A DNA stretch of 64,000 nt from NCBI RefSeq assembly GCF_021952865.1, contig NZ_CP040792.1, forward strand, positions 2,170,001 to 2,234,000, written 5' to 3'. This document shows positions 10,391-33,786 of the stretch, one piece after another; the stretch's first letter is position 1; each line of letters begins with the position of its first letter. The stretch comes from Clavibacter californiensis. GTDB lineage: Bacteria; Actinomycetota; Actinomycetes; Actinomycetales; Microbacteriaceae. Made by a program: the position numbers and the translations under genes. A model generated the notes under the pieces. It was not told the DNA's origin and made no database searches. It saw only the letters and a program-made list of their open reading frames with translations.

Positions 10391-11728
10391 ATGGACAAGC
10401 AGCGTGACTTCGTCCTGCGGACGATCGAGGAGCGCGGGATCAAGTTCGTGCGCCTGTGGTTCACCGACGTGACCGGCACCCTGAAGTCGGTGGCGATCGC
10501 CCCGGCGGAGGTCGAGGGAGCGTTCGCGGAGGGCCTCGGGTTCGACGGCTCGGCCATCGAGGGCCTCACCCGCTCGTACGAGGCCGACATGCTGGCCCAC
10601 CCGGATCCGACGACCTTCCAGATCCTCCCGTGGCGCGGCGAGATCGACCCCACCGCGCGCATGTTCTGCGACATCTCGACGCCGGACGGGCAGCCCGCCA
10701 TCGCGGATCCGCGCAACGTCCTCAAGCGCACGCTGGAGAAGGCGGCCGACCGCGGCTTCACCTTCTACACGCACCCCGAGATCGAGTTCTACCTCCTCAA
10801 GTCGAGCGAGTTCGGCGTCGACGGCCCGGAGCCCGTGGACGCGGCCGGCTACTTCGACAACGTCCCCGGCGGCACGGCGCACGACTTCCGCCGCCGCTCG
10901 GTGCGCATGCTCGAGGACCTCGGCATCTCCGTGGAATTCAGCCACCACGAGGCGGGCCCCGGCCAGAACGAGATCGATCTCCGCTACGCGGACGCCCTCA
11001 CCACGGCCGACAACATCATGACGTTCCGCACGGTCATCAAGGAGGTGGCCATCGAGCAGGGCGTCTACGCGACGTTCATGCCGAAGCCCCTCGCGGCGCA
11101 CCCCGGCAGCGGGATGCACACGCACATGTCGCTCTTCGAAGGCGACGTCAACGCGTTCTACGCGTCCGGCGCCGAGTACCAGCTCTCCACCATCGGCCGC
11201 CAGTTCATCGCGGGCCTCCTCAAGCACGCCCCGGAGATCACGGCCGTCACGAACCAGTTCGTGAACTCGTACAAGCGCCTGTGGGGCGGCGGCGAGGCCC
11301 CGAGCTTCGTGACGTGGGGCCACAACAACCGCTCCGCGCTCGTGCGGGTGCCGTTGTACAAGCCCAACAAGGGCAACAGCTCGCGCGTCGAGTACCGCGC
11401 CATCGACTCCGCGGCGAACCCGTACCTGTCGTTCTCCCTCATGCTGGCCGCGGGCCTCAAGGGCATCGAGGAGGGCTACGAGCTGCCGGCCGAGGCGGAG
11501 GACAACGTGTGGACCCTGAGCGACGCCGAGCGCCGCGCCCTCGGGTACGCGCCGCTGCCGTCGAGCCTCGACCACGCGATCCAGCTCATGGAGCGCTCCG
11601 AGCTCGTCGCCGAGACGCTGGGGGAGCAGGTGTTCAACTACGTGCTGCTCAACAAGCGGCAGGAATGGCGCGACTACCGCGCTCAGGTGACGCCGTACGA
11701 GCTCCGCTCCAACCTCGAGATGCTCTGA
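10391..11728 (+). CDS. glnA2: Glutamine synthetase, GlnA2 type (GS I-alpha)
   Basis: A 445-residue glutamine synthetase-fold enzyme. Conserved blocks: FDGSAIEGL, PEIEFYLL, HHEAGPGQNEIDLRYADAL, GSGMHTHMSL, NRSALVRVP and RVEYRAID. It is about 30 residues shorter than GlnA1 at 14900 and its region near the adenylylation loop reads YELPAEAEDNVW, without the NLYxLPPEE context, so control by GlnE is unlikely. Gene order glnA2-glnE matches mycobacteria and corynebacteria. ATG 10391 follows GAGAGGGTGG, and TAGGTT about 20 bases further upstream is a possible -10. GlnA2 enzymes may act on glutamate or on gamma-glutamylation substrates; only the fold is certain. Confidence 0.93.
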   Translation: MDKQRDFVLRTIEERGIKFVRLWFTDVTGTLKSVAIAPAEVEGAFAEGLGFDGSAIEGLTRSYEADMLAHPDPTTFQILPWRGEIDPTARMFCDISTPDGQPAIADPRNVLKRTLEKAADRGFTFYTHPEIEFYLLKSSEFGVDGPEPVDAAGYFDNVPGGTAHDFRRRSVRMLEDLGISVEFSHHEAGPGQNEIDLRYADALTTADNIMTFRTVIKEVAIEQGVYATFMPKPLAAHPGSGMHTHMSLFEGDVNAFYASGAEYQLSTIGRQFIAGLLKHAPEITAVTNQFVNSYKRLWGGGEAPSFVTWGHNNRSALVRVPLYKPNKGNSSRVEYRAIDSAANPYLSFSLMLAAGLKGIEEGYELPAEAEDNVWTLSDAERRALGYAPLPSSLDHAIQLMERSELVAETLGEQVFNYVLLNKRQEWRDYRAQVTPYELRSNLEML

Positions 11729-27413: not shown

Positions 27414-27662
27414 CGCCGGCCCGCACACGGATCCCATTGGCTCGCCCACGCGCGCATCCGTGCAATAATCAGATACGGACCCGTTCATGTCCTGCATCTC
27501 GCATCACCTCGGTGGTGGCGTCATCCCGGTGGCGCACGAGCAGCGGACTTGACATGGGTCCTAGCAATGTCCGAAAACAACCCCGACCCACCTCCGGCAG
27601 GTCTCCCCGCAGCAGCATCGCGGAGCGCGCGACCGGTCGTCGTGGGGACGAAAGGTGTTCGC
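27414..27662 (+). promoter_or_regulatory. Upstream region of sigA
   Basis: These 249 bases hold the AT-richest patch nearby (TGCAATAATCAGATAC at 27461-27476), preceded by TTGGCT (27437-27442), and further on a perfect TTGACA (27549-27554). I could not pair either -35-like box with a convincing -10 at 16-18 bases, so promoters are likely but not placed. Confidence 0.35.
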
Positions 27663-29150
27663 ATGGCCACCCCCTCCACACCGTCCGCCACCCTGGACGC
27701 GGCTTCCGCGACCGGCACGGCCGACGACGCCGCGACGGGTGAGGCGAAGGCACCCGCGAAGCGCGCCCCCGCCCGCAAGACCGCGGCCGCGAAGGCTCCC
27801 GCTGCCAAGACGGCGACGGCGGCGAAGGCCCCGACGAAGGCCGCCGCCGCGAAGGCCGCGGCAGCTGAGGCAGCAGCAGCCGAGGCCGACGATGCGGCCT
27901 CCGCCGACGCTCCCGCGGCGCCCGCCAAGGCACCCACCGCGCGGGCGAAGGCCGCGGCCGCGAAGAAGGCCGCCGCCGCGTCGGGTGACGCCGCACCGGC
28001 GAAGGCCCCGCGCAAGACCGCGGCGAAGAAGACGGCGGCCCAGGGCTCCGGAGAGGCGTCCGACGACGACGCCGAGGAGGTCGTGGTCCCCGTCGCCGAG
28101 GACGACTCGGATGACGAGGCCGTCGAGGACGGCGCCGCCAAGCCGCCCGTCGCGCTCGAGCCGCTCCCGACCGGCGCCATGGTGCTGTCGAACAAGGAGG
28201 AGGACGAGGACGTCCCCGTCTACTCGACGACCATCACCGGTGCCACGGCGGATCCCGTCAAGGACTACCTCAAGCAGATCGGCAAGGTCGCGTTGCTCAA
28301 CGCCGCCGAGGAGGTCGAGCTCGCCATGCGCATCGAGGCGGGGCTCTTCGCTGAGGACAAGCTGGCGAACACGCCCGGCATCTCGCGCGAGCTGGAGCGC
28401 GAGCTGCGCTGGGTCGCGCGGGACGGCCAGCGCGCGAAGAGCCACCTGCTGGGCGCGAACCTGCGTCTCGTGGTGAGCCTCGCCAAGCGCTACACGGGTC
28501 GTGGCATGCAGTTCCTCGACCTGATCCAGGAGGGCAACCTCGGCCTCATCCGGGCGGTCGAGAAGTTCGACTACACCAAGGGCTTCAAGTTCTCCACGTA
28601 CGCCACGTGGTGGATCCGCCAGGCCATCACGCGCGCCATGGCCGACCAGGCGCGCACCATCCGCATCCCTGTGCACATGGTCGAGGTCATCAACAAGCTC
28701 GCCCGCGTGCAGCGCCAGATGCTGCAGGACCTGGGCCGCGAGCCCACGCCCGAGGAGCTGTCGCGCGAGCTCGACATGACGCCCGAGAAGGTCATCGAGG
28801 TCCAGAAGTACGGGCGCGAGCCGATCTCCCTGCACACGCCCCTGGGCGAGGACGGCGACAGCGAGTTCGGCGACCTCATCGAGGACACCGAGGCGGTCGT
28901 CCCCGCGGACGCCGTCGGCTTCACGATGCTGCAGAAGCAGCTGGAGTCGCTGCTCGACTCGCTCTCGGAGCGCGAGGCCGGCGTGATCCGCATGCGCTTC
29001 GGCCTCGGCGACGGCATGCCGAAGACGCTCGACCAGATCGGCGACACGTTCGGCGTCACGCGAGAGCGGATCCGCCAGATCGAGTCGAAGACCATGGCCA
29101 AGCTCCGCCACCCGTCGCGCTCGCAGTCGCTGCGCGACTACCTCGAGTAG
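27663..29150 (+). CDS. sigA: Principal RNA polymerase sigma factor SigA
   Basis: The 495-residue housekeeping sigma-70. The first ~195 residues are low-complexity, rich in Ala, Lys, Pro and then acidic (repeats of the KAPAKR / KTAAAK type), as in mycobacterial SigA. The functional part starts with region 1.2 ([17 protein letters not shown], ~197), followed by region 2 ([20 protein letters not shown], then [20 protein letters not shown]), region 3 and region 4 with the -35-binding helix-turn-helix ([17 protein letters not shown]). ATG 27663 is chosen for AAAGGTG six bases upstream; an in-frame ATG at 27567 cannot be excluded. murT follows after three bases. Confidence 0.96.
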
Positions 29151-29153
29151 GCC

Positions 29154-30434
29154 GTGCCGCTGCGCCTCGCCGTCGCCGCGGGCCGGGCCGCCCGCTGGGC
29201 CGCCCGTCTCCGTGGCGGCGGTTCCGCCGTGCCCGGCGTCGTCGCCCTCCGCCTCGAGCCGCGCTTCCTCGAGCGCACGATCGCCGACCTGCCGCACGGG
29301 GTGGTCGCCGTCACCGGCTCCAACGGCAAGTCGACGACGACCCACATGCTCACCGCCGTGCTCCGCGCGCATGGTCTCCGCGTCTTCACGAACCCGTCCG
29401 GCGGCAACCTGCCCCAGGGGATCGCCTCCGCGGTGCTCGCGGACGCCGACGCGTCCGGTCGCCTCGATGCCGACGTCGCCGTGCTCGAGATCGACGAGGC
29501 CTACGGCGTCGCGCTCTCCGCGCTGCTCACGCCGCGCACGGTGCTCCTCCTCAACATCCAGATCGACCAGCTGAACCGCTTCCACGAGCCGGATCGCGTG
29601 GTGGGCATGCTCGAGCGGATCGCCGCCACGGCGACCGAGGCCGTGGTCGCCAACCGGGACGACGCGCACGTCAACGCCATCGCCGCGCACACCGCGCGCT
29701 CCGGCCGGGCCGACGTCGACTGGTTCGGCGTCTCCGAGGAGCTCCTGGTCGACAGCAAGCACGGCCTGGCGTCCGCGCCGCGGTTCGGCTCCGAGGATCC
29801 CGACCCGGTACACGTCGCGGCCGGAGTCGAGGCCGTGGCGCTCTCCGGTCGCAATGCGGTCTTCCGGCTGCCGTCCGGCGACCTCCCCGTGACGCTCCCG
29901 TCGCGCGGCCTGCACTACGCCGTCGACGCCGCGGGCGCGCTCGCGACGGCCAGGCGCGTCCTCGGCGACCGCTTCGACCCCGCTCGTGCGGCTGAGGGCC
30001 TGGGATCCGTGGCCGCCGTCTACGGTCGCGGCGAGATGCTGCGCGCGGGCGACGAGGACATCGAGATCATCATGATGAAGAACCCGGCGAGCCTGCAGAT
30101 GAACCTCGACGCGCTCGACGACCCGCCCGAGCAGGTGCTGCTCGCCGTCGACGACGGCACGCCGGACCCCTCCTGGATCTACGACACCGACCTCTCCGCG
30201 CTCACGCACGCCGACGTCGTCTCCGGCACGAAGGGCTACCAGCTGGCCGTGCGCTTCGGATACGAGGGCCTCGAGGTCGGCCGCGTCGAGCCCGACCTGC
30301 GCCGCGCCGTGCAGGCGTTCCTCGCGATGGAGAAGCCGTCCCGCGGTGTCAAGACCATGATCGTCAACTACGAGCAGATGATGGCGATCCGCCGCATCCT
30401 CGGGTACACGGACCTCGAGGGAGGACCCGCGTGA
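29154..30434 (+). CDS. murT: MurT-like Mur ligase, zinc ribbon lost
   Basis: A 426-residue Mur-ligase-fold ATPase. In other bacteria MurT activates the alpha-carboxyl of D-Glu in lipid II and GatD supplies ammonia to make D-isoglutamine. P-loop GSNGKSTTT at residues 55-63, carboxy-activation region NIQIDQLNRF, MMKNPASLQMNLDAL and the C-terminal DUF1727-type domain (DGTPDPSWIYDTD). The central CxxC zinc-ribbon insertion usual in MurT is missing, and the protein has no cysteine. GTG 29154 starts three bases after the sigA stop; the stop overlaps gatD. With a dead GatD partner it may use an amine other than ammonia. Confidence 0.92.
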   Translation: MPLRLAVAAGRAARWAARLRGGGSAVPGVVALRLEPRFLERTIADLPHGVVAVTGSNGKSTTTHMLTAVLRAHGLRVFTNPSGGNLPQGIASAVLADADASGRLDADVAVLEIDEAYGVALSALLTPRTVLLLNIQIDQLNRFHEPDRVVGMLERIAATATEAVVANRDDAHVNAIAAHTARSGRADVDWFGVSEELLVDSKHGLASAPRFGSEDPDPVHVAAGVEAVALSGRNAVFRLPSGDLPVTLPSRGLHYAVDAAGALATARRVLGDRFDPARAAEGLGSVAAVYGRGEMLRAGDEDIEIIMMKNPASLQMNLDALDDPPEQVLLAVDDGTPDPSWIYDTDLSALTHADVVSGTKGYQLAVRFGYEGLEVGRVEPDLRRAVQAFLAMEKPSRGVKTMIVNYEQMMAIRRILGYTDLEGGPA

Positions 30435-31165
30435 GCGACGCCCTGCGCATCCTGCACCTCTACCCCGAGGAGCTCGGCATCAACGGCGACCGCGGCAACG
30501 TGACCGTGCTCGTCGAGCGCGCGCGCATCCGCGGGATCAGCACGGAGGTCGTCCGGCACTCCCCGGGTGGTGGGGACCCGGGCGACGCCGACCTCGTGGT
30601 CATCGGCTCCGGGCCGCTCACCGCGCAGCGCGCCGTCCTGCCCGACCTCGTCGCGCACGCCCCGCATCTCGTCGCGCTCCAGGAGGCCGGCGTCCCGCTC
30701 CTCGCGGTGGGCGGGGGCCTGCAGCTCCTGGGGGAGTCCGTGCGGCTCATCGACGGCGGCGAGCTCGTCGGCGCGGGAGTCCTGCCCGTGCGCACCACGC
30801 TGACGGCCGAGCGACGCGTGGGAGACCTCGTGCTCGACACGCCGGAGGGCGAGGTCGTCGGTTACGAGAACCACGGGTCCACGCTCGACATCGGCGCGCA
30901 CGCTCCGCTCGGCACGGTGCGCGCGGGCTTCGGCAACGGCGGGCAGGGCGGCGCGGAGGGCGTGCGCGTCGGCGCCGCCATCGGCACCCACCTCGGCGGG
31001 CCCGTCCTCGCGCTCAACCCGCGCCTCGCGGACGAGCTGCTGTCCGCAGCCCTCGCGCGGCATGGCCGCGAGCTGCCCGCCGACATCTCGGGGACGCTCG
31101 ACCGGCTGGACGCCTGGGCGCGCGAGGCCCGGTCCACCGTGATGGCCCGGCCGGCGCACTACTGA
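30431..31165 (+). CDS. gatD: GatD-like glutamine amidotransferase homologue, catalytically dead
   Basis: A 244-residue class I glutamine-amidotransferase fold, the partner of MurT. The fold is intact: LYPEELGINGDRGNV at the start, VVIGSGPL, GYENHGS and the C-terminal NPRLADELL. The nucleophile elbow that should read CGGxQLLG is VGGGLQLLG, so position 94 is Gly (codon GGC at 30710). The catalytic His motif GTxLHGP is GTHLGGP, so position 189 is Gly (30995). There is no cysteine anywhere, so glutamine hydrolysis is not possible by the known mechanism. GTG 30431 overlaps the murT stop (GTGA), keeping the pair coupled. It may be a structural or substrate-binding subunit. Confidence 0.92.
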   Translation: MSDALRILHLYPEELGINGDRGNVTVLVERARIRGISTEVVRHSPGGGDPGDADLVVIGSGPLTAQRAVLPDLVAHAPHLVALQEAGVPLLAVGGGLQLLGESVRLIDGGELVGAGVLPVRTTLTAERRVGDLVLDTPEGEVVGYENHGSTLDIGAHAPLGTVRAGFGNGGQGGAEGVRVGAAIGTHLGGPVLALNPRLADELLSAALARHGRELPADISGTLDRLDAWAREARSTVMARPAHY

Positions 31166-31495: not shown

Positions 31496-31707
31496 GTGAT
31501 GCTCCCCTCCGGGTCGGGTCTGGTCGAGCCGAATGCATCAAGTAGACCACGAGCTCCCCGCAGTCGACCCGACCGCGGACGTCTGTTTCGCTCTGCGCGT
31601 AGGGCGCGGTGCGGGTGACGTCGATTCGGAGGGGGAGGCGGCGGGCGGCGGTTAAGATCGATGCGGCTCGCGTCCGGCGAATGCCGGACGTACATGGAGG
31701 ACAGCAC

Positions 31708-33786
31708 GTGGCAGCATCCGATTATTCCGCCCGCCATCTCTCCGTCCTCGAGGGCCTCGAGGCCGTGCGCAAGCGGCCCGGCATGTACATCGGATCCACC
31801 GACTCGCGCGGCCTCATGCACTGCCTCTGGGAGATCATCGACAACAGCGTCGACGAGGCGCTCGGCGGGCACGGCGACCGCATCGACGTGCGGCTCCATC
31901 CCGACGGCAGCGTCGAGGTGCGCGACACCGCACGCGGCGTGCCGGTCGACATCGAGCCGAAGACCGGACTCTCCGGCGTCGAGGTCGTCTTCACCAAGCT
32001 GCACGCGGGCGGCAAGTTCGGATCCGGCTCCTACGCGTCATCGGGCGGCCTGCACGGCGTGGGCGCGTCCGTCGTGAACGCGCTGTCGGAGCGCCTCGAC
32101 GTCGAGGTGGACCGCGGCGGCAAGACGCACGCCATGTCGTTCCGGCGCGGCGAGCCGGGCATCTTCGAGGACCAAGGCGAGGCGAGCCCCGACGCGCCGT
32201 TCCGCCCCTTCACATCCGGGAGCGAGCTGCGGGTCGTCGGCAAGGTGCGCAAGGGCGTCACCGGCACGCGGATCCGCTACTGGGCCGACCGGCAGATCTT
32301 CACCCGCGGCGCGTCCTTCCTCACGGAGGAGCTCCTCGGCCGCGCGCGCCAGACCGCGTTCCTCGTCCCCGGGCTGAGCATCGACATCGAGGACCTCCGC
32401 GGCGAGCAGCCCGTGCGCGAGTCCTTCCGCTTCGACGGCGGCATCGCGGAGTTCGTGGACCACCTGGCCGTCGACGCGCCGCTGACGGACACCTGGCGGC
32501 TCGAGGGATCCGGCACGTTCACTGAGACCGTGCCCGTGCTCACCGACGGCGGCGCCATGGTGCCGACGGAGCTCACGCGCGAGTGCGCCGTCGACATCGC
32601 GCTCCGCTGGGGCACGGGGTACGACACCCGCTTCAAGTCGTTCGTCAACATCATCGCGACGCCCAAGGGCGGCACCCACCAGGCCGGCTTCGAGGCGGGC
32701 CTGCTCAAGTTCGTGCGCGCGCAGGTCGAGGCCAACGCGCGCAAGCTCAAGGTCGGCACCGACAAGCTCGAGAAGGACGACGTGCTCGCCGGCCTCACGG
32801 CGGTGCTCACGGTCCGCTTCCCCGAGCCGCAGTTCGAGGGCCAGACCAAGGAGGTGCTGGGCACGCCGGCCGTCCGCGCCATCGTGTCGCAGGTCGTGCA
32901 GAAGGCCATGACCGAGCGGTTCGCGTCGACCCGACGCGAGGACAGGGCGCAGACCGCCGTGCTCCTCGAGAAGGTCGTCGGCGAGATGAAGTCGCGCATC
33001 TCGGCGCGCACGCACAAGGAGACGCAGCGGCGGAAGAACGCGCTCGAGAGCTCGTCCCTGCCCGCGAAGCTCGTGGACTGCCGGTCGAACGACGTCGCCA
33101 ACAGCGAGCTGTTCATCGTGGAGGGCGACTCCGCCCTCGGCACCGCGAAGCTCGCGCGCGACAGCGAGTACCAGGCGCTGCTGCCCATCCGCGGCAAGAT
33201 CCTCAACGTGCAGAAGGCGTCGCTGCCGGACATGCTCTCCAACACGGAGTGCGCCTCGATCATCCAGGTGCTGGGCGCGGGATCCGGCCGCACGTTCGAC
33301 CTGTCGGCGGCGCGCTACGGGAAGATCATCATCATGAGCGACGCCGACGTCGACGGCGCCCACATCCGCACGCTGCTGCTCACGCTCTTCTTCCGCTACA
33401 TGCGGCCGATGATCGACGAGGGCCGGGTCTTCGCCGCCGTGCCGCCGCTGCACCGCGTGGTGGTCATGAACCCGGGGTCGAAGCCGAACGACGTCATCTA
33501 CACGTACTCGGAGCGGGAGCTCGCCGCGGTCCTCGCGCAGGCGAAGCGGCAGGGCAAGCGCTACCAGGACCCGATCCAGCGGTACAAGGGCCTGGGGGAG
33601 ATGGACGCCGACCAGCTCGCGACGACCACCATGGACCGCCGCAACCGCACGCTCCGCCGCGTGCGCGTCGACGACGCCGAGGCCGCCACGCGCATGTTCG
33701 AGCTGCTCATGGGCAACGACGTCGCGCCGCGCAAGGAGTTCATCATCGACGGCGCCGGATCCGTGCGGGACCGCATCGACGTGTGA
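31708..33786 (+). CDS. parE: DNA topoisomerase IV subunit B (GyrB/ParE family)
   Basis: A 692-residue ATPase subunit of a type IIA topoisomerase. GHKL ATPase: IIDNSVDEAL, DTARGVPVD, GGLHGVGASVVNAL; transducer lysine region FEGQTKEVLG; TOPRIM IVEGDSALGTAK and MSDADVDGAHI; C-terminal YKGLGEMDADQL. The Leu in EGDSALG replaces the common Gly. GTG 31708 is chosen for GGAGG seven bases upstream. It is convergent with the A subunit at 33868-36414. Separate gyrA/gyrB genes are expected near oriC, so topoisomerase IV is the likeliest identity. Confidence 0.94.
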   Translation: MAASDYSARHLSVLEGLEAVRKRPGMYIGSTDSRGLMHCLWEIIDNSVDEALGGHGDRIDVRLHPDGSVEVRDTARGVPVDIEPKTGLSGVEVVFTKLHAGGKFGSGSYASSGGLHGVGASVVNALSERLDVEVDRGGKTHAMSFRRGEPGIFEDQGEASPDAPFRPFTSGSELRVVGKVRKGVTGTRIRYWADRQIFTRGASFLTEELLGRARQTAFLVPGLSIDIEDLRGEQPVRESFRFDGGIAEFVDHLAVDAPLTDTWRLEGSGTFTETVPVLTDGGAMVPTELTRECAVDIALRWGTGYDTRFKSFVNIIATPKGGTHQAGFEAGLLKFVRAQVEANARKLKVGTDKLEKDDVLAGLTAVLTVRFPEPQFEGQTKEVLGTPAVRAIVSQVVQKAMTERFASTRREDRAQTAVLLEKVVGEMKSRISARTHKETQRRKNALESSSLPAKLVDCRSNDVANSELFIVEGDSALGTAKLARDSEYQALLPIRGKILNVQKASLPDMLSNTECASIIQVLGAGSGRTFDLSAARYGKIIIMSDADVDGAHIRTLLLTLFFRYMRPMIDEGRVFAAVPPLHRVVVMNPGSKPNDVIYTYSERELAAVLAQAKRQGKRYQDPIQRYKGLGEMDADQLATTTMDRRNRTLRRVRVDDAEAATRMFELLMGNDVAPRKEFIIDGAGSVRDRIDV

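Follow-up and report, generated by a model that had tools for sequence, protein, structure and literature searches.

The lipid II isoglutaminyl synthase MurT/GatD is known from Staphylococcus aureus (PDB 6gs2, 6h5e, and 7q8e) and Streptococcus pneumoniae (6fqb). The GatD mutations C94G and C94S abolish glutamine-dependent amidation in S. aureus (PMC6113224, PMC3266927). The C94G mutation did not affect the ammonia-dependent MurT reaction at pH 8.5, for which MurT alone was inactive, and MurT with GatD C94G was inactive with ammonia at pH 7.5 (PMC3266927). This behavior is a biochemical precedent for a dead GatD, one without its glutaminase residues, acting as a scaffold. Here we describe a MurT-GatD pair with a dead GatD from Clavibacter californiensis (Microbacteriaceae; assembly GCF_021952865.1, contig NZ_CP040792.1, positions 2,170,001 to 2,234,000 of the forward strand). 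This stretch of 64,000 nucleotides is called the window, and the coordinates of murT, gatD, rpoD, and parE are positions in it. Our preferred reading, to which we give a probability of about 0.52, is that the interval between rpoD and parE is a cassette for starting or building the type-B interpeptide bridge on the α-carboxyl of D-Glu, with the dead MurT-GatD as one interchangeable ligase. No paper naming the enzyme that attaches this bridge to D-Glu in type-B peptidoglycan was found in open-licence PubMed Central. Papers on MurT-GatD in Microbacteriaceae were also sought there, in a collection that leaves out most subscription papers, and none was found.

Both subunits in the window were homologous to the known enzyme, and their genes were adjacent. 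murT (29154–30434, plus strand, GTG start) and gatD (30431–31165, plus strand) shared 4 bases in a GTGA overlap. MurT, a predicted Mur-ligase-type ATP-dependent ligase, matched Mur_ligase_M (43.7 bits, cut-off 24) and MurT_C (37.3 bits, cut-off 25) above the Pfam gathering scores, and GatD matched GATase_3 (67.5 bits, gathering score 27). The nearest solved sequence to MurT was S. pneumoniae MurT 6fqb (E 3.8e-28), with homology also to 9sq9 and 7q8e. Those nearest to GatD were S. aureus GatD 5n9m and 6gs2 (E about 1e-26). As in the known enzyme, the ATP-site residues of MurT and the MurT-facing residues of GatD were kept. Unlike the known enzyme, the window GatD lacked Cys94, the channel tyrosine, and His189, the window MurT lacked the zinc ribbon, and the pair stayed below the cut-offs of the curated NCBIfam equivalogs NF045635 and NF045636 (106.7 bits for a cut-off of 800 and 78.5 bits for one of 400).

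Alignment to S. aureus GatD (5n9m) placed Gly94 (codon 30710–30712, plus strand) at the catalytic cysteine position and Gly189 (codon 30995–30997, plus strand) at the catalytic histidine position, as a sequence-only reading of this DNA had proposed. Asn18 (codon 30482–30484, plus strand) is the equivalent of S. aureus Tyr17. That reading had also described both proteins as free of cysteine, and the count was zero in MurT and in GatD. Judged by sequence, the pair is homologous to MurT-GatD, but its residues are not those of a glutamine-dependent enzyme, and so it should not be annotated as one. The window genome (3.24 Mb, two contigs) was also searched for a second, intact pair. This candidate was rejected; only a single MurT_C match was present, and three further GATase_3 matches all lay far from the pair. 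On the second contig, 12 kb resembled 21 plasmid records, of which 20 are from Clavibacter, in keeping with the genus.

The six MurT residues Lys59 (P-loop), Glu112, Glu115, Asn134, Asp138, and Arg292 were invariant in 32 of 32 sequences, namely the window and 31 named relatives. In three pairwise comparisons within the genus, the ratio of nonsynonymous to synonymous substitution rates (dN/dS) was 0.056–0.065 for MurT and 0.115–0.187 for GatD (0.06 and 0.12–0.17 for the window versus two congeners), indicating that the pair is maintained by purifying selection. The proposal that both folds, the P-loop, and the GTGA coupling are kept under selection thus agreed with the Pfam matches, the invariant Lys59, the overlap, and these ratios. 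A relic that no longer catalyzes a reaction, and is decaying or serves structure alone, would fit the loss of the GatD catalytic residues. It would also fit the state of Naasia lichenicola (L193), where GatD was not found at the locus and the MurT match had an inner TAG. The low dN/dS and the invariant ATP site argue against a relic, as does the conservation of Gly190 (95/95) and Pro191 (91/95) in the dead GatDs compared below, and we consider it very improbable.

With the window GatD as the query, matches were obtained in 116 of 149 Microbacteriaceae genomes. A MurT profile found MurT in 122 of the 149, always at E 1e-39 or better, and the other 27 had only weaker matches of the Mur-ligase kind (E 1e-18 or worse). 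The GatD residues of 65 family genomes were read at 70 loci, of which 30 were the best matches of the GatD search and 40 were fetched. Cys94 was absent in 63 of them, replaced by Gly, Ala, Ser, Asn, Thr, or His, and the other 7 (L036, L038, L039, L061, L063, L073, and L075) had both Cys and His. Outside the family, Cys and His were present in 20/20 GatDs of the order sample and 29/29 of the class sample. These two sets overlapped by one genome, so that loss of Cys94 or His189 was seen in 0 of 48 non-family genomes.

A joint alignment of 151 GatDs (95 dead and 56 intact) was used to compare the residues. Cys94 was absent from 95/95 dead and present in 55/56 intact sequences, the remaining intact one being gapped there. 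Tyr at S. aureus position 17 was absent from 95/95 dead and present in 56/56 intact sequences, and Cys94 and Tyr17 were the losses common to all dead GatDs. In S. pneumoniae, GatD Tyr30 sits where imidazole glycerol phosphate synthase has its ammonia-channel plug (PMC6085368). The third catalytic residue is disputed between MurT Asp349 (PMC6113224) and a GatD Asp (PMC6085368); the latter was kept in 84/95 dead GatDs. Pro191 of S. aureus GatD contacts MurT (PMC6113224), and it is one of the two MurT-facing residues that the dead set retained. Glutamine hydrolysis and the channel gate are therefore lost in the dead GatDs, and the contact with MurT seems to be retained. Loss of His189 had been expected to track type-B walls together with loss of Cys94. 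This did not hold, and a general loss of His189 was rejected, for 52 of the 95 dead GatDs, though not that of the window, still have this residue.

A fixed location between rpoD and parE, with ligase or racemase-like neighbors in relatives, is a further difference from the known MurT/GatD. In the window, the left border is an rpoD-type primary sigma factor gene (27549–29150, plus strand, start codon uncertain; NCBIfam RNA polymerase sigma factor models). The right border, as in most named loci, is a parE/gyrB-type topoisomerase gene (31609–33786, plus strand; NCBIfam DNA topoisomerase subunit B models). Named genomes were scanned with a RpoD stretch, and the best 80 loci of a longer list were taken as the named-locus set. 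The gene directly after rpoD was MurT in 42 of them and a CofE/F420-ligase-like gene in 37, never both, and at the remaining locus (L128) the contig ended at rpoD. Exactly one first ligase, MurT-GatD or CofE-like, thus followed rpoD directly in 79/79 readable loci. A GatD was seen at all but one of the 42 MurT loci, and Cys94 was absent from all 41. Among 40 family loci (L036–L075), 31 of 33 dead GatDs with flanks adjoined rpoD, and none of the 7 intact GatDs did. The two dead GatDs outside the slot (L041 and L043) were second copies, and the slots of the same genomes held another dead pair.

The slots read up to parE also differed in the genes that follow the first ligase. An ATP-grasp gene was present in 29/30 CofE slots versus 1/39 MurT slots, and a pair of racemase-like genes, named AlrA and AlrB here, in 18/30 CofE slots and 15/39 MurT slots. 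Pfam assigned two CofE-like proteins to PF01996 (50 and 41 bits, cut-off 25), the family of CofE, the F420-0:γ-glutamyl ligase, and three neighboring proteins to ATPgrasp_ST, PF14397 (110–163 bits, cut-off 31). A solved relative of one slot ATP-grasp open reading frame (ORF) was sought by sequence, and no match was found. Unlike CofE in F420 enzymes, the slot gene encodes a stand-alone protein of about 230 aa and lies between rpoD and parE. Sixteen weaker CofE matches outside the family (E 1e-45 to 1e-61) lay in frames of 809–1016 codons, as in fused F420 enzymes. In three non-family genomes, the rpoD–parE gap was about 0.8 kb without a cassette (G240) or parE was not adjacent (G164 and G318).

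MurT and the CofE-like ligase also excluded each other across whole genomes. Among the 49 genomes behind the named loci, MurT was found in 24 and was missing from 25, and all 25 were of the CofE type. They included Microbacterium oxydans, M. testaceum, M. maritypicum, M. flavum, Salinibacterium xinjiangense, Microcella alkaliphila, Gulosibacter chungangensis, and one Stenotrophomonas-labeled contig. A strong CofE-like match (E below 1e-90) was obtained in 21 of the 149 family genomes, all within the 27 that were MurT-negative. The hypergeometric chance of 21/21 is 1.5e-20, a figure that ignores relatedness, all genomes being from one family. Both kinds occurred within six genus codes (g7, g9, g53, g54, g70, and g77). 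Of 15 family genomes listed in the order sample, 6 had the CofE-like gene without MurT and 9 had MurT without a strong CofE-like gene. None of the 183 non-family genomes in the sample had the strong CofE-like gene. The Stenotrophomonas-labeled contig (S. maltophilia, L173) carried a Microbacteriaceae-type rpoD–CofE–ATP-grasp–parE locus with no MurT found, and looks like contamination or a wrong label.

The dead pairs fell into two lineages. Clade A, which includes the window (21/21 rows), and the dead clade C (8/8) each had 100/100 support in MurT trees. Clade C occupied the same rpoD–parE slot, kept the zinc-ribbon cysteines (5–7 Cys), and had the GatD motif THNALEVLG. Four of its eight loci (L045, L050, L052, and L053) had an ATP-grasp gene. 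Intact homologues and well supported branches separated the two clades, so that the tree needs two changes of state. Constraining A and C together cost 24 log-likelihood units. The second tree left out L060 and the long-branched L047, which had fallen near clade C in the first. The zinc ribbon, whose loss had been listed among the features of the pair, is indeed gone from the window MurT. As a part of the switch it was rejected, since, in other families of the order, 15 of the 20 MurTs paired with an intact GatD also had fewer than 4 Cys, and clade C retains its cysteines.

Two side observations concern MurT in these lineages. At position 258, clade A had Asp in 21/21 sequences and intact MurTs had Asn in 29/29, and position 255 was mostly Tyr in clade A and mostly Asn in intact MurTs, close to a position examined in work on the S. 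aureus ATP site (window MurT residues 254–258, 29913–29927). In the slot at L047 (genome G112), and outside the slot at L222 (G049), a divergent CofE-like gene immediately adjoined a divergent MurT-GatD; the two genomes have the same genus code.

AlrA and AlrB share the Ala_racemase_N and Ala_racemase_C domains of alanine racemase (PF01168 and PF00842). Unlike that enzyme, AlrB has only about 237 aa and no lysine at the pyridoxal phosphate position. The lysine was present in 22/22 AlrA and 0/28 AlrB sequences with a readable motif, which was unreadable in 16 AlrA and 9 AlrB. The two proteins are therefore perhaps subunits of an (obligate) heterodimeric racemase. Two examples of slot pairs are L152:9783-10493 with 10415-11530 and L191:9941-11014 with 11014-11724. 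The window genome had two tandem full-length alr genes elsewhere (G000:C1:21759-23323, L257). Tandem alr pairs were also present in several of its relatives, and a single alr gene was found in 13/13 non-family genomes examined. One of the tandem alr products in the window genome could serve diaminobutyrate.

For the cassette, we infer the substrate, the amine, the sequence of reactions, and what each enzyme does as follows. Clavibacter MurT would activate the α-carboxyl of D-Glu in a peptidoglycan precursor with ATP to form an acyl phosphate. GatD would no longer make ammonia and would be retained as the partner that holds MurT active. The S. aureus C94G data lead us to expect that a GatD with a natural Gly94 is required as the partner of a ligase using an external amine. 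Once the catalytic Cys and the channel Tyr were gone, this amine would come from an amino acid, most likely D-diaminobutyrate (D-DAB). The amine is hinted at by the racemase-like and ligase neighbors in many relatives and by the CofE-like gene standing in for MurT-GatD. In relatives without MurT-GatD, the CofE-like ligase would take the first step, and the ATP-grasp ligase would probably add a further residue. AlrA and AlrB may supply the D-amino acids.

The gene content of the slots was compared with bridge chemistry. Bridges in Microbacterium have Gly as their first residue, and D-Orn is found in Curtobacterium. The CofE-like gene was found in 28 of 32 Microbacterium-labeled loci, and MurT without ATP-grasp at 7 Curtobacterium, 5 Cryobacterium, 1 Glaciihabitans, and 1 Frigoribacterium loci. 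In Clavibacter a single D-DAB on D-Glu forms the bridge (PMC9603630), and the reported wall types are B2γ for Cryobacterium, B10 for Glaciihabitans, and B2β with D-Lys for Frigoribacterium (PMC7033078). A two-residue bridge would be matched by the two ligases of Microbacterium, CofE-like and ATP-grasp, and a one-residue bridge by the single ligase of Clavibacter, Curtobacterium, Cryobacterium, and Frigoribacterium. One MurT-GatD pair per bridge residue was also considered, and this idea gave way to the slot data. Strain-level bridge structures were sought in open-licence PubMed Central, where the cell-wall data found did not go below genus or species level.

The pair could instead still amidate D-Glu with free ammonia, the glutaminase being dispensable and the bridge coming from another enzyme. 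The S. aureus C94G mutant uses ammonia at pH 8.5, and D-Glu amidation has been reported in Clavibacter muropeptides (PMC9603630); the latter fits an ammonia-using MurT as well and counts against the cassette reading. At pH 7.5, however, the same mutant is inactive with ammonia. An ammonia-using MurT also leaves unexplained the exclusivity with CofE-like and ATP-grasp genes and the racemase-like genes of the slot, and does not by itself explain the shared loss of the channel Tyr. On balance, we think that ammonia use is quite unlikely.

A more specific form of the cassette reading can be put forward only tentatively, at somewhat under even odds. It holds that unrelated ligases, either two separately deadened MurT-GatD lineages or a CofE-like with an ATP-grasp ligase, were exchanged in place and combined with a heterodimeric racemase, that the set of modules dictates the bridge composition, and that loss of the glutaminase turned an amidotransferase into an amino-acid ligase.

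Several observations weigh against the bridge cassette or its in-place exchange. Nine family genomes had a slot without a cassette (G003, G076, G081, G117, G005, G055, G017, G047, and G110), and four of these (G003, G076, G081, and G117) had a single MurT-GatD that was intact and off-slot. Neither ligase was found in 6 of the 149 genomes (G017, G045, G047, G057, G108, and G110). Should these genomes have type-B walls, their bridge must be made in another way. A divergent CofE-like gene occurred together with MurT in three genomes (G049, G112, and G134). The approximately unbiased test gave p 0.078 for clades A and C together, so that a single origin of the dead state is not formally excluded. 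A racemase gene is lacking from the window slot itself, and among 30 cassette-type genomes checked for alr, 8 had only one copy. M. schleiferi is listed with Orn (PMC10978784), and the locus labeled M. schleiferi (L162) was a CofE slot without a racemase. The comparison of bridges with cassettes was at genus level. As to other slot contents, G045 and G108 had other ORFs between rpoD and parE, and G138 had a 519-aa Mur-ligase-like ORF there (L211:6337-7896), perhaps another slot solution.

Cassette types that differ within genera, and slots that are empty, are what an accessory trait would show. The slot might then make no bridge and place an amino acid on the D-Glu α-carboxyl of stems that are not cross-linked, or on a different acceptor, for example a wall polymer. 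Every slot ligase is of a carboxyl-activating kind, and Micrococcus luteus carries Gly on the D-Glu α-carboxyl that is not known to serve as a bridge. Against this, the cassette was present in most family genomes examined, a bridge on the D-Glu carboxyl is the known peculiarity of the family wall, and a separate bridge ligase was not seen. We therefore regard an addition outside the bridge as unlikely.

The sequence-only reading had put the pair forward as a candidate type-B bridge ligase, with loss of Cys94 expected to follow type-B walls. In our samples the loss was confined to this type-B family, and the slot position, the exclusivity, the racemase-like and ligase genes in the slots of many relatives, the lack of a second intact pair in this genome, and the C94G precedent speak for a ligase of this kind. 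The tracking was incomplete, given the 27 family genomes without the pair and the seven intact GatDs, which lie outside the slot. Because MurT-GatD is missing from those 27 genomes, Microbacterium members among them, a universal type-B enzyme was rejected. The pair is thus a partly supported candidate, one among others, for starting the type-B bridge.

For the family, the search for the type-B bridge enzyme is narrowed to one slot and a handful of genes, and predictions are gained of which gene set accompanies which bridge. The pair seems to be a naturally occurring example of an amidotransferase that has switched to a different amine. Taxonomy makes use of wall bridges, which also bear on sensitivity to wall-active drugs and lytic enzymes.

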